This document shows, one piece after another, positions 25,325-39,750 of a DNA stretch of 64,000 nucleotides. The stretch is from Ruania halotolerans (GTDB taxonomy: Bacteria > Actinomycetota > Actinomycetes > Actinomycetales > Beutenbergiaceae): assembly GCF_021049285.1 (NCBI RefSeq), contig NZ_CP088017.1:1499380-1563379 (forward strand), given 5' to 3'. A program made the translations under genes and the position numbers. The stretch's first letter is position 1; each line of letters opens with the position of its first letter. The notes below the pieces were generated by a model, which was given only the letters and a program-made list of their open reading frames with translations, was not told the origin of the DNA and ran no database searches.

Positions 25325-27136
25325 ATGACTTCGACAGCCAGCGGTTTGGTGTTCTCGGCTTCGGCCGGGGGCACTGTGTTGGCTGCTGTGCGGCAGAACC
25401 GGACGGCGGCCCGGGCGGTGGATGTCGAGTGTGCTGAGTTGGTCGTGGCGTGGGTGCGTGAGCACGCCATCGACCCCGGTAACCTCGCTTCCGGGACGCC
25501 AGTGTTCGACCCCGAGGTGGACGCCGGGCTTCCTGGGACCGAGCAGCCGATGCGGCTGGCCGGTCCGGGGGCGCCGTTGGTCTCGGATCTGGGGTTCACC
25601 CGGTTAGCGGCCGCGCTCGGGCAATCCAACGAAGCAGCGCTCTATTACGTCGGCTCGATTGTGGAGTTGGCGTACCGGTTGCCGGTGTTGTGGGGCCGGG
25701 TGCGGGCCGGGCAGATCAGTCTCCACCGCGCCCGGGCGGTGGCCCGGTTGACGAAGAAGCTCCCCGCCGCCGGTGCTGGGTGGGTCGATGCTCAGGTCGC
25801 CTGGACCATCGGCACCTGCAGCACCAGTCAGATTGAACGCACCGTGGCCGCTGCGATGGAGTCTTTCGACCCCGCACAGGCAGAAGCCGATCGTGAGGCA
25901 GCGTTGGAGGGGCGCCGGTTCGATATCCACCTCGACGAGGTCGCCACCTCGGGTGTGGCGGGCTCGGGGGCGATCGTGCAGGTTGATGGCGGGTTGGAGG
26001 TTGCTGATGCTCTCGATCTGGACGCAGCGGTTCGTGATCGTGCCCGGGCTCTCGCAACACTCTTGCCCGGCACGAGTGAGGACGTGCGCCGTTCCATCGC
26101 TGTGGGTGACCTCGCGAGAGGGCAAGGCACCCTCCCACTGGCAGAGACCGACACCAACACTGACACCGGTGCCGACGCCGAGACCGACACCGGTGCTGGG
26201 GCAGGTACTGGCGCTGGGACCAAAACCCTCACCCCCGACGTAGCCGGCACAGACTCAGGTGCAGGCCACGGTGCGATTGGTCGCACGGTGATGCTCTACC
26301 TCCACCTGCCCGCCGACGCTCTCAAACCCGGCAATGGTGAGAGGCGAGATTACGCCGCGGGCAGTGTGTTCAGCACCGGGGCCATCGGGCGGTGTGAGAA
26401 CACCAGGTCCCCGGTCACCACCGAGCAGGTCCGCTCCTGGTGCCAGGCGGCGGGGCGGGTGATCGTGCGACCAGTGATCGATCTGAACGCCCACTACAGC
26501 GCGAGCACCTATGAAGCCAACCCACGACTACGCGAACAGATCATCCTGCGCGATAGTCACTGCCGGTTCCCGTACTGTCAGCGCACCGCCCGGGCTGCTG
26601 ATCAGGACCACACCATCCCCTACGACCAGGGTGGGCCTACCAGTACCGCCAATCTGACCGCGTTGTGTCGACGTCACCATCGAGCGAAAACCCATGCGGG
26701 CTGGTCCTACCTGATGATCACCCCCGGGACCTACCTCTGGACAGACCCCGACGGAGTTCACTACCTCGTCACCACTACCGGCACCTTCCCCATCCCCGGC
26801 AGCCCTGGAAACGGGCCGCCATCGGGTGGGAGAACTGGTGCCCCGCCCAGTGGGAGAACGGGTGGCCCGCCCGGAGTGCGATCACACCGCTCATCCGATG
26901 GCAAAACCAGCGGCCCACCCGGTCACAGTCAGAGCAGCCCGTTCGGCGTGCTCGACCCGCACGTGGCCAGAGTGCGCGAACGCGCCATCACCGCCATGAA
27001 GAAGACAGCCACCGCCACACCACCACCACCACGATTCCGCACCGACCCAGACGATCACGCCGACCCCGCGCGGCGTGACGGCTCACTACCAGGCACGAAG
27101 AAATCGCCACCAGGCACGGATCCACCTCCGTTTTGA
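25325..27136 (+). CDS. DUF222 and HNH endonuclease domain protein (13E12 type)
   Basis: A 603-residue protein of a family present in many copies in actinobacterial genomes. The N-terminal DUF222 region spans about 20-290. A linker near 275-300 is a low-complexity Thr/Asp/Gly/Ala run. An HNH nuclease fold lies around 400-460 with CRFPYCQ, DQDHTIPYDQGG, NLTALCRRHH and KTH. The C-terminal 120 residues are Pro/Gly/Arg-rich and probably disordered. The family's role is unknown; a mobile or nuclease function is often supposed but not shown. The ATG at 25325 lacks a ribosome site. A TTA codon near 25604 is unusual for this genome. Confidence 0.85.
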   Translation: MTSTASGLVFSASAGGTVLAAVRQNRTAARAVDVECAELVVAWVREHAIDPGNLASGTPVFDPEVDAGLPGTEQPMRLAGPGAPLVSDLGFTRLAAALGQSNEAALYYVGSIVELAYRLPVLWGRVRAGQISLHRARAVARLTKKLPAAGAGWVDAQVAWTIGTCSTSQIERTVAAAMESFDPAQAEADREAALEGRRFDIHLDEVATSGVAGSGAIVQVDGGLEVADALDLDAAVRDRARALATLLPGTSEDVRRSIAVGDLARGQGTLPLAETDTNTDTGADAETDTGAGAGTGAGTKTLTPDVAGTDSGAGHGAIGRTVMLYLHLPADALKPGNGERRDYAAGSVFSTGAIGRCENTRSPVTTEQVRSWCQAAGRVIVRPVIDLNAHYSASTYEANPRLREQIILRDSHCRFPYCQRTARAADQDHTIPYDQGGPTSTANLTALCRRHHRAKTHAGWSYLMITPGTYLWTDPDGVHYLVTTTGTFPIPGSPGNGPPSGGRTGAPPSGRTGGPPGVRSHRSSDGKTSGPPGHSQSSPFGVLDPHVARVRERAITAMKKTATATPPPPRFRTDPDDHADPARRDGSLPGTKKSPPGTDPPPF

Positions 27137-36531: not shown

Positions 36532-37494
36532 TCAGTGGCGTCGTGCGGCACGCCCCCATGCCGCGCCGAGCGCGAACTGACTGGACACTCCGTAGTGCGC
36601 CATCGCGTCGGCCACCCGGCGGCGCGCAGTTCGCTGGGCCATCCCTAACCGGGACGCCGCCGCTTCCATCGTCATCCCTTGGTTCATCAGCACCAGCATC
36701 GGTTCCCAGGAACGCTGCGGGCTCTCCAACGGCGAGGCCGCGTCCCAGAGGTCGGCAAACATCGCGCCCGCGATCTCGGCGATCGGCTCTGAGCGGACGG
36801 TCATGAGGCTGGTCGGCCACGCCTGGCCCCAGGTGAATGGCAGGCCGGCGACCGCACCGTCGGACACCCAGAACAGACTCGGCGGGTCAGGGTGCATCCG
36901 GATCTCCGTGCCGCGGTCTTGCATCCGGGCCAGTGCCCCGCGTAGCGATTCGTCCGCCGCATCGGCCATGCTCACGATGAGGCGGACCCGCAGGTCACTC
37001 ATCGCCGTGCTGGTCCAGTCGGCGATCGGCCGATCGCTTCGATGGTGGAGCAACCGGGACAGGTCCGGGATGCACAGGTCACACTGCTGCGGCGTGTCCC
37101 TCGTGAAGTGGAGCATCCAAGAGTCGGTCGGGGCACGCCGACCGTGGACGACCTCGGCCGCGAGGGTGCGTTCATCCGTGCCGCCGGCGTCCCAGGCCTG
37201 CAGGAGAGCCGGAAGGGTGCCGAGGGCTTCGTTCAGGTCGGCCGCAGTCTGAGTGAGTTCCTCGATCCGGCTCTGAACGTCGGTGCGGATGGTCTCGGTG
37301 ATCGGGACTTCGGGACGGCGGTAGGTGATCGTCTCGTCGTCGAGGTCGAGGTATCCGAGCCGGCGGAGTGACTCGACCCCCGACTGGACCTCCTCGGTCG
37401 GTGCCCCCGTGACCGCTGCCAGGTGTGCGGTGGTCGTTGCCCGGCTGCGCAGAGCTGCGGTGAGTAGGCGGGTGAGATCTTTTGACAGAGCCAC
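36532..37494 (-). CDS. Regulator with TrmB-like N-terminus and LuxR-like C-terminal helix-turn-helix
   Basis: A 320-residue DNA-binding protein. The N-terminal 60 residues (LTAALRSRATTTAHLAAVTGAPTEEVQSGVESLRRLGYLD) form a TrmB/MarR-like winged helix. A coiled-coil-like stretch follows at about 75-95. The middle region resembles the phospholipase-D-like sensor found in such regulators. The C-terminal GMTMEAAASRLGMAQRTARRRVADAMAHYG is a LuxR-type helix-turn-helix. Start GTG at 37494 has GGAGG four bases upstream. It is divergent from the proline-rich membrane protein, and a TGGCCACTA direct repeat lies between them. Target unknown; the divergent gene is the obvious candidate. Confidence 0.78.
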   Translation of the reverse strand: MALSKDLTRLLTAALRSRATTTAHLAAVTGAPTEEVQSGVESLRRLGYLDLDDETITYRRPEVPITETIRTDVQSRIEELTQTAADLNEALGTLPALLQAWDAGGTDERTLAAEVVHGRRAPTDSWMLHFTRDTPQQCDLCIPDLSRLLHHRSDRPIADWTSTAMSDLRVRLIVSMADAADESLRGALARMQDRGTEIRMHPDPPSLFWVSDGAVAGLPFTWGQAWPTSLMTVRSEPIAEIAGAMFADLWDAASPLESPQRSWEPMLVLMNQGMTMEAAASRLGMAQRTARRRVADAMAHYGVSSQFALGAAWGRAARRH

Positions 37495-37516: not shown

Positions 37517-37563
37517 TGGCCACTATAGGCCAGGGGACGCTTCTGTCCACAGTATGGCCACTA
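37517..37563. promoter_or_regulatory. Direct repeat in a divergent promoter region
   Basis: TGGCCACTA occurs at 37517-37525 and 37555-37563, 38 bases apart, between the divergent regulator (start 37494) and membrane-protein (start 37606) genes. Such a pair on one side of the helix could be a binding site for the regulator. Inference only. Confidence 0.35.
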
Positions 37564-37605: not shown

Positions 37606-39750
37606 ATGGGGGTGCACGTGCGGGCGTGGGCGCGGCGTGCCGTCCTCGTTGCCGCCCTCGCGCTCGGGATCGCCTGTGCCGGCACGGCACCGACACTCGC
37701 GCTGGGCACACCGGAGTCATCGGTGACCTTCGACGAACCAGACGGCCTGGTTGCCGGGCCCGGCGGCGACTTCTCCTACTTGCTGCCGCTTGATCACGGC
37801 GCCCGGCCGTCGTACCCGTTCCGCGGCGAGGTCGCCTGGTCCGAGTCGCCATTCTCCGTCGAGGTGACGGGAAGGCGGCTCGACGGAACACCGGTCACGG
37901 TGTGCGAGTCCCTGGAATACGAGCCAGGCACCTCCAACTGGGTGTGTTACTACTCGGCGCGGCAGCAGGGCCCGCTGCCCACCCTGATCGAGCTCGAGGC
38001 CGCCCTGCGGCCCGCCGACGCTGTTGAACCGGTGGCGTGGGGTGCCGTGCCCGGGGTGCGTATCCTCGGCTCGCCCGCCCTCGACTCGCGTGCGGTCGCC
38101 TCCGACGGGGCATCGGCCACGCTCTCCGGTACGCGCGAACTGGGAATGGGGGTGGCCATCTACCCCGGCCGAATAGTGCCTAGCTCACCGCCAGAGGGGG
38201 CAGAAGCGCTCTGCGTCGACGAGGCGTGGTCGCGGGCGGAATGGTCCTGCGAGATCGACACCTCTGGCCTTGCCGAAGGCCGGCACACCTACAGTGCGCG
38301 TCATGTCCCGATTGACGGCGACCCCGCGGATATCGAGTTCTTCGTCCCCTCGGGCTTCCGGTGGATCTATGTCGATCAGCCAGAGCCGACGCCAGAGCCG
38401 ACGCCGACACCCACACCGACGCCAGAGCCGACGCCCACACCGACGCCCACACCGACGCCAGAGCCGACGCCGACACCCACACCGACGCCCGATCCCACAC
38501 CGCCCATTCCCAGCCCGACACCGACGGCGGCTCCCGTTCCCGATCCTGCCGATGAGCCCGAACCTGAGTCGAGCGCAGGGCCTGTGCTCGTGCCCCCGTC
38601 GGCGCTGAACCCCCCGTCTGCGGCAGCGCCCACTGAGCAACTCGCTCCAGACCCGACTCCAGACCCGAGCGCGGCAGTCGACCCCGAACCAACCGAGCAC
38701 CCGACATCGTCGGACGATCCCGAACCTGACTCGGGCGCCACCGGGGCCGCCGGCGCCGCTGGTCCCACCCCCGGCAGCTCCGGTTCGAGCACCACCCCAT
38801 CCAGCTACGGGCACGCCCTGACCGCGCCACCGGAGCTGATCGCCGCCGGACCGGCCGCGCTCGGTGGGGCGGCGCTGACCGCGGCCGGCTTCCTGGTGCT
38901 CGTGGCGCTGCCCTCGGAGCTACTGCATGCCACGCTCCGGCACAACTACACGCAGGCGTTCGGCTTCCTCGGCGGCTGGCGGCGCCGGTGGACCACGTGG
39001 GCTGCTCGAGCCACTGTGCCGCCGTGGATCGCAGCGGGTCTGCTGCTAGCCGCCGGAGCGCTCATCGGAAGTCTTGCCACACTTGAGACTGGCGGGCTAT
39101 CCGTGCTGGCTCGCCTCTGCCTCGCCATGTTTCTCGCGCTGGTCACCACGAACGGCGTCGGAGTCGCCCTGGGGTGGCTGATGGGCACCCGGTACCGGGC
39201 GCAGCCGCAACTGACCCTGATGCCCGGGTTCCTCCTCCTGACCGCGGCGAGCGTGCTGGTCTCGCGTGCATTCGGCCTCGAACCGGCGATCTTGTTCGGC
39301 GTGCTGATCATGACCACGTTCGGCGGCGCCCTGCGGCGAGAGCAACGCGGCGTGCTCTCGGCGGTGGTGTGTGCGGCATTCGCGGGCCTCGGCGGCCTGG
39401 CCTGGATCGGGTACGGACTGATCGACCCATCCACCACGGGGTTCGCAATGGAGTTCCTTCGCGAGTACCTCACCACCTTGCTCACCGGCGCGATCGGATA
39501 CTGCGTCGTGGCGCTGCTCCCGTTGACCTTCCTGGACGGCCAGCGAATCCTGCGCTGGTCCAAGCCGGTGTGGGCGCTGCTCTACGCCGCCGTGATCGTG
39601 CTGTTCCTGCTCACTGTGGTGCCGCTGCCGAGTTCGTGGCAGGAGGCCTCCGGTGCTGCCCTGTGGTGGTGCGGAGCCTTCGGGGCGTTCGGTCTGGCAT
39701 CGATCGCGATCTGGGCGTGGTTCCGCATCAGGACTCCGCGATCTCCTTGA
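37606..39750 (+). CDS. Proline-rich surface protein with a polytopic membrane domain; function unknown
   Basis: A 714-residue protein I do not recognise. A signal sequence (ARRAVLVAALALGIACAG) leads to two beta-rich outer domains (about 35-145 and 150-250), each with cysteines. Then comes a Pro/Thr/Glu repeat region (259-300) built of PEPTPTPT units and a further disordered, Pro/Ser/Asp-rich stretch to about 405. The last 300 residues (410-705) form six or seven membrane spans, with the motif LPLTFLDGQRILRW between the last pairs. No HExxH or other protease motif is seen. The ATG at 37606 has GAGGAGG seven bases upstream. The gene is divergent from the TrmB/LuxR-like regulator, and its 3' end overlaps the convergent ArsR gene by 23 bases. 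Possible roles: surface sensor or cell-wall-associated transporter; neither is supported. Confidence 0.75.
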   Translation: MGVHVRAWARRAVLVAALALGIACAGTAPTLALGTPESSVTFDEPDGLVAGPGGDFSYLLPLDHGARPSYPFRGEVAWSESPFSVEVTGRRLDGTPVTVCESLEYEPGTSNWVCYYSARQQGPLPTLIELEAALRPADAVEPVAWGAVPGVRILGSPALDSRAVASDGASATLSGTRELGMGVAIYPGRIVPSSPPEGAEALCVDEAWSRAEWSCEIDTSGLAEGRHTYSARHVPIDGDPADIEFFVPSGFRWIYVDQPEPTPEPTPTPTPTPEPTPTPTPTPTPEPTPTPTPTPDPTPPIPSPTPTAAPVPDPADEPEPESSAGPVLVPPSALNPPSAAAPTEQLAPDPTPDPSAAVDPEPTEHPTSSDDPEPDSGATGAAGAAGPTPGSSGSSTTPSSYGHALTAPPELIAAGPAALGGAALTAAGFLVLVALPSELLHATLRHNYTQAFGFLGGWRRRWTTWAARATVPPWIAAGLLLAAGALIGSLATLETGGLSVLARLCLAMFLALVTTNGVGVALGWLMGTRYRAQPQLTLMPGFLLLTAASVLVSRAFGLEPAILFGVLIMTTFGGALRREQRGVLSAVVCAAFAGLGGLAWIGYGLIDPSTTGFAMEFLREYLTTLLTGAIGYCVVALLPLTFLDGQRILRWSKPVWALLYAAVIVLFLLTVVPLPSSWQEASGAALWWCGAFGAFGLASIAIWAWFRIRTPRSP
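38380..38505 (+). repeat. Coding Pro-Thr/Pro-Glu repeat
   Basis: About 126 bases of in-frame repeat, mixing CCAGAGCCGACG and CCGACACCC-type units, encode residues 259-300 of the proline-rich membrane protein. Such stretches act as stiff spacers in cell walls and are prone to length change by slippage. Confidence 0.85.

Follow-up and report, generated by a model that had tools for sequence, protein, structure and literature searches.

The gene at positions 37606..39750 of the window (the whole 64-kb stretch of DNA analysed, part of a one-contig chromosome of 4.27 Mb; G000:C1:1499380-1563379) encodes a 714-aa stalked surface protein whose C-terminal membrane domain is, judged by profile searches, an outlying relative of the NCBIfam family NF041501 (cola_mem). 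We tentatively regard it as a non-catalytic, site-2-protease-like membrane domain placed under exchangeable surface modules. The best joint explanation, to which we give a probability of roughly 0.4, would be a stalked surface protein with a non-cutting membrane domain derived from a site-2 protease (S2P) and with a regulator that acts via a palindrome.

The order of parts claimed in the preliminary description, with a signal peptide, two Cys-pair beta domains, a Pro/Thr/Glu stalk and a polytopic C-terminus, was found again in the present analysis:

37606..39750, + strand: gene for the 714-aa stalked polytopic surface protein (open frame; orthologues in G003 and G006)
37606..37704, + strand: predicted signal peptide, about residues 1-33 (positive n-region and hydrophobic core, by eye)
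37714..38055, + strand: outer domain 1, residues 37-150, cysteine pair C100/C114 (hhalign; perhaps divergent bacterial Ig-like)
38050..38379, + strand: outer domain 2, residues 149-258, cysteine pair C203/C215 (hhalign; perhaps divergent bacterial Ig-like)
38380..38814, + strand: Pro/Thr/Glu stalk, residues 259-403 (composition)
38848..39729, + strand: polytopic membrane domain, residues 415-708 (relative of NF041501 cola_mem)

The N-terminus appeared signal-peptide-like by eye, and both cysteine pairs were located in the outer part of the protein. All four of these cysteines (C100, C114, C203 and C215) are retained in a 59% identical protein of Ruania rhizosphaerae (L017), the nearest named relative met, whose membrane domain is 71% identical. 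The proline stalk was confirmed by 48 Pro and 25 Thr among the 147 residues 259-405; the linkers of relatives differ from it in length and sequence. At the DNA level, 46 bases of the stalk match 26147-26192 and two other chromosomal places (L002, L004) with 83% identity; these three stalk-like stretches may come from other proline/threonine-repeat proteins. Upstream of the locus lie genes that we take to be hemD, hemB and hemL, and downstream the Pfam scan revealed an AHSA1-type protein (PF08327, E 9.9e-19) as well as an ArsR-like HTH protein.

The architecture had been described before as matching no family. For the membrane domain this had to be given up, as it aligns along nearly the whole profile of NF041501 ('FGLLP motif-containing membrane protein'). 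In the whole-protein NCBIfam search (E 9.9e-27, 93.7 bits) residues 412-703 covered positions 8-312 of the 312 in the profile, and the membrane domain alone matched with E 7.3e-28 and 97.5 bits. Since the curated naming cut-off of 150 bits lies above these scores, the window protein is placed as an outlying relative of the family. All 16 members of the alignment A2, including the window protein, match NF041501. Like the relatives that were read, the protein joins outer modules and a linker to a C-terminal polytopic domain; unlike the family, it has other outer domains, scores below the cut-off and reads VALLP in place of FGLLP. At the LDG position its sequence is VALLPLTFLDG and FGLEP occurs elsewhere; the family name by itself leaves the meant motif ambiguous. 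In the family member L036 the stretch before LDG is IFGLLPLRFLDG, and M50 proteases have VFNLLPxxPLDGG; from L036 we infer that FGLLP stands before LDG in NF041501. Among the matches listed, a literature search gave no study of the NF041501 or FGLLP-motif family and no function for it.

Within the phylum the family is sparsely distributed, and one membrane domain is joined to varied outer modules. NF041501 matched 17 of 396 genomes of the phylum sample at E ≤ 0.001, seven of them over the cut-off, and several of the weak matches are partial and perhaps due to chance. The window's own small alignment, used as query, matched 11 of the 396, and among 14 control genomes outside the phylum one, Sulfolobus acidocaldarius, matched NF041501 below the cut-off. 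In a set of 59 relatives the membrane domain was found in six genomes, namely the window's own, four of the seven other genus members, and G050. The genus carriers comprise orthologues in G003 and G006, a C-terminal remnant in G002 (L015 7474-7682) and a frame-broken orthologue in G001 (L012 4682-6508), which lies in three pieces with two frame changes; the adjoining regulator of G001 matches in one piece, and the broken frame may be due to an assembly error. Two peptide patterns, searched in a species-genome collection, detected 15 loci in eight genera (Ruania, Microbacterium, Herbiconiux, Cryobacterium, Rhodoglobus, Demequina, Subtercola and Microcella). The outer modules predicted by Pfam were LRR_5 and Flg_new (L018), Big_13 and Big_6 (L021), Big_6 (L025), and CarboxypepD_reg (L083, L087). 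At L088 7214-11320 (G240), HEAT-like repeats just under the cut-off and a further hydrophobic stretch follow the membrane domain.

The topology of the membrane domain was derived from hydropathy averaged over 26 aligned rows, from AlphaFold helices and, by eye, from the positive-inside rule. The polytopic C-terminus described earlier was retained, but the former count of six to seven spans was replaced by about nine, with short TM4 and TM5, and the N-terminus is predicted outside and the C-terminus inside. The segments and motifs used below are:

38917..38949, + strand: motif ELLxxTLxxNY, residues 438-448, at the predicted cytoplasmic end of TM1
39334..39555, + strand: TM6-TM7, residues 577-650, aligning with the last two core helices of site-2 proteases
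39514..39540, + strand: LLPLTFLDG, residues 637-645, counterpart of the family's FGLLPLxFLDG and of the protease NLLPxxPLDG

Across the 26 rows (25 distinct sequences), E, T and N of the first motif are kept in 22, 24 and 24, respectively. In LLPLTFLDG, P639 and G645 are invariant and D644 is present in 21 rows and replaced in five. The AlphaFold (AF2) model, built from 16 sequences, reached a mean pLDDT of 74.9 and a pTM of 0.71, for which reason the details of the topology are uncertain. With this model, Foldseek found no PDB chain at E ≤ 0.001 and VIA-align gave middling Z values, the best of which (8.0) belonged to a phage Mu baseplate chain; no S2P was among the 50 best fold matches listed by either program. 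As no PDB fold match was significant, no fold family is claimed for the domain.

The resemblance to site-2 proteases emerged from profile comparisons by hhalign, in which the 26 aligned membrane-domain rows were set against PDZ-less M50 sets of 22, later 53, sequences. The 26-row alignment matched the 22 PDZ-less M50 sequences with P 0.0041; comparisons of the same round gave P 0.038 for RseP-like M50 (a set in which three or more of 22 sequences had been cut at the wrong DGG), 0.034 for rhomboids, 0.14 for Rce1-like proteins and 0.08 to 0.49 for reversed profiles. Core compared with core yielded P 3.6e-4 (Prob 37; reversed 0.2) for the 22 sequences and, when forced to be global, Prob 2. With the 53 sequences the whole domain matched at P 1.9e-4 (Prob 48; reversed 0.32), and the core-to-core value improved to P 2.5e-5 (Prob 75; reversed 0.2), the core having been trimmed only after the protease lead had been seen. 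When the family rows were divided into two non-overlapping subsets of 9 and 17, both found M50 columns 54-123 in the 53-sequence set (P 2.3e-4 and 2.0e-3), the rhomboid, Rce1-like and reversed controls of this test ranging from P 0.036 to 0.43. Against the 22-sequence set, the values for the same subsets rose to P 0.0094 and 0.036, and a reversed rhomboid control scored as well as the second of them.

The match to the 53-sequence profile spans only two helices of the three-helix S2P core. Here TM6-TM7 align with the GPxxN and NLLPxxPLDG helices of PDZ-less site-2 proteases (Peptidase_M50, PF02163), and the LDG of the window protein falls motif on motif. According to PMC4597795 and PMC10202637, S2Ps carry HExxH and LDG in different core helices, and the extended LDG region contributes to contact with the substrate. 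Unlike site-2 proteases, the family lacks HExxH in all 26 rows, has more spans and a large outer part, and shows no match at the Pfam level: Peptidase_M50 was listed for none of 16 members at E ≤ 1, and one of them matched Peptidase_M48_N at E 0.0039. A clear match to a known protease family, which the preliminary description had named as speaking against its reading, was no more than hinted at, by a remote, non-catalytic S2P resemblance in the profile comparisons. Because HExxH is absent from every row, the domain is tentatively read as protease-derived without a catalytic site. We hold protease ancestry to be a tentative reading, somewhat short of an even chance, and a catalytic role to be very doubtful. 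A rather more tentative proposal is that cola_mem as a whole may be a branch of catalytically dead site-2 proteases, with FGLLP as a remnant of FNLLPxxPLDG; it would form a plug-in platform under interchangeable Ig-like, LRR or CarboxypepD_reg modules and act as a bacterial pseudo-S2P receptor engaging membrane partners without cutting.

TM4 (SVLVSRxxG) was read at first from local similarity as the counterpart of SVLVHExxH. The broader M50 alignment leaves only TM6-TM7, and TM4 is awkward as an HExxH helix because, by the predicted topology, it would run the wrong way. A low-scoring second alignment with the broader M50 set points to TM5 instead, so that TM4 and TM5 are both candidate counterparts of the HExxH helix. 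In a window scan the 12 best of 82 control windows all belonged to the RseP-like M50 branch (P 0.0037 to 0.014) and were not counted as support; the four best may include the LDG stretch, and the other eight look scattered and chance-like. As an analogy, iRhoms, described in PMC3149277 as rhomboid pseudoproteases, have a protease-family membrane domain without catalytic residues; unlike them, the window domain would be S2P-like, and no homology is claimed, the rhomboid control having given the P 0.034 mentioned above.

The two outer domains were compared with an Ig-like test profile built from 13 C-x-W-x-C pieces, which four relatives contributed (L019, L020, L021, L025); L021 and L025 carry Pfam Big domains that exceed the cut-off, and L019 one that falls below it. 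Outer domain 1 matched this profile with P 8.9e-4 (Prob 23; reversed control P 0.57) and outer domain 2 with P 0.0022 (Prob 13; reversed control P 0.86), in a register that is partly built in, because the pieces were picked by the C-x-W-x-C pattern. Neither domain was detected in a comparison with the other (P 0.22). Like bacterial Ig-like domains of the Big_6 and Big_13 type, both carry a C-x(n)-W-x-C pattern and give a weak profile match. Unlike them, they are without a Pfam match, the scan of the 714-aa protein having listed no family, bacterial Ig-like ones included, at E ≤ 5, and the structure model of the outer part (pLDDT 37.5) is too poor to use. Both outer domains are perhaps divergent Ig-like domains.

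The region in front of the gene contains a divergently oriented regulator gene and a short palindrome:

36532..37494, - strand: regulator of 320 aa with a winged-helix-like N-terminus and an HTH C-terminus (weak Pfam matches)
37517..37532, no strand: palindrome TGGCCACTATAGGCCA, proposed operator (conserved in four aligned intergenic regions)
37555..37563, + strand: second TGGCCACTA half-site, 38 bases downstream of the first

The regulator had been described as TrmB/LuxR-like. A divergent regulator with weak winged-helix and HTH similarity was indeed found, but the eight Pfam families listed for it (E 0.0025 to 1.9, all under the curated cut-offs) include neither TrmB (PF01978) nor GerE (PF00196). 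Full-length orthologues were present in four of 59 genomes (G000, G001, G003 and G006; E ≤ 2.5e-118), and 12 further genomes gave weak, partial matches (best E 7.3e-4 to 4.7e-10). In G001, G003 and G006 the orthologue, 59-65% identical, lies beside the membrane gene. Regulator and membrane gene occur together as neighbours in four of the eight genus genomes, exactly those with more than a gene remnant; the other four are without the regulator, and G002 alone among them keeps a remnant of the membrane gene. Control by its own regulator, as suggested earlier, is in keeping with this linkage within the genus, but outside it the linkage failed, an outcome that the preliminary description had named as adverse: the regulator was found in none of 14 loci of other genera (L018-L031; tblastn at E 1e-2; flanks up to 8 kb, much less for L030). 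From the linkage within the genus, the adjoining regulator probably controls the membrane gene.

The direct repeat TGGCCACTA reported before was confirmed at 37517-37525 and 37555-37563, its only two occurrences on either strand of the window. Its first copy is part of the palindrome TGGCC-N6-GGCCA; the second half-site is exact in G001 and reads TGGCCGGTA in G003 and G006. The pattern TGGCCACTNTAGGCCA stands at the same place in the alignment of all four intergenic regions between regulator and membrane gene, without any change. It occurs once, without mismatch, in each of the four pair-bearing genomes, where its presence is given because the pattern came from these sites; a further site at one mismatch was not found. 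The four genus genomes without the pair contain no site at up to one mismatch, and with one mismatch allowed a backwards control pattern had between 0 and 5 occurrences in each genome. Since no genome has a second site, the regulator-gene unit is suggested to be the only strong target of the regulator, and the palindrome may be regarded as a putative operator bound by it.

No common neighbour gene across genera was found at the loci compared. In Microbacterium suaedae (L018 8902-11418), the gene that starts 10 bases downstream of the family gene, perhaps in one operon with it, encodes a large LuxR-type ATPase regulator with a GerE match (E 7.1e-14); this regulator is unrelated to that of the window. 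A BTAD-type ATPase regulator near a distant copy (L084) is a different protein again. In G179 (L084 9072-10283, L085 8192-9010) both family paralogues are followed by a gene for a Bestrophin-like (PF14023) membrane protein.

Other explanations of the protein were considered. It might be a surface adhesin or decoration protein, whose outer domains bind a surface or polymer and whose membrane domain is a mere multi-span anchor, with neither signalling nor protease ancestry. The adhesion-type outer modules of relatives (Big, LRR_5, CarboxypepD_reg), a stalk that suits display and the lack of a recognisable cytoplasmic signalling domain in the 714-aa protein (Pfam, NCBIfam) agree with this. Against it, the membrane domain has about 300 conserved residues, with invariant Pro, Trp and Gly and with polar motifs predicted to face the cytoplasm, more than a simple anchor is likely to require, and we consider this explanation rather unlikely. 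Improbable in our view is a transporter or channel, or a protein handling lipids or wall polymers by means of an outer substrate-binding part, even though about nine spans and the Bestrophin-like gene after both paralogues in one distant genome would suit it. A match to a known transporter family, another outcome named in advance as adverse, was not seen in Pfam, NCBIfam, PDB sequence or significant fold results. No transporter family exceeded the cut-off in Pfam or NCBIfam (the best weak Pfam row was Cation_ATPase_C, E 0.022, in two of 16 members), one PDB sequence search returned nothing and the other a single 27-residue row at E 1.3, the fold matches include transporters only at non-significant E values of 0.39 and worse, and the outer modules are rather varied for a single substrate.

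An active intramembrane protease with a different catalytic arrangement could use E438, D644 or other conserved polar residues, and these two, both at the predicted cytoplasmic side, occur in 22 and 21 of the 26 rows, respectively. Neither is invariant, though, and HExxH, the defining S2P motif, occurs in none of the rows, which makes such an activity very improbable. The most likely putative function is that of a regulator-controlled, non-proteolytic stalked surface receptor or anchor. In this receptor or anchor, the signal peptide would export the protein and leave the two Cys-pair, perhaps Ig-like, domains outside; the proline-rich stalk would cross the wall, and the C-terminal domain of about nine spans would hold the protein. 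The membrane domain would descend from the core of a site-2 protease whose catalytic zinc site disappeared while the helix-binding part, TM6-TM7 with LLPLxFLDG, was retained, and it would work without cutting, serving a partner on the cytoplasmic side as an anchor or transducer. The divergent regulator would bind the palindrome between both genes and set the expression of both. Speaking against this explanation are, among the points given above, the broken frame beside an intact regulator in G001, the replacement of D644 in five rows and the lack of the regulator beside relatives of other genera. The architecture, the family relation, the linkage within the genus and the single palindrome per genome are computed results; the Ig folds, the protease ancestry, the operator function and the signalling are inferences. 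Envelope sensing is a possible candidate role.

The gene pair and the palindrome, unique in each genome, represent a compact and testable regulator-target unit. If the protease ancestry is true, an unstudied family of actinobacterial surface proteins would gain its first mechanistic handle, and bacteria would gain an S2P-lineage counterpart to the iRhoms.
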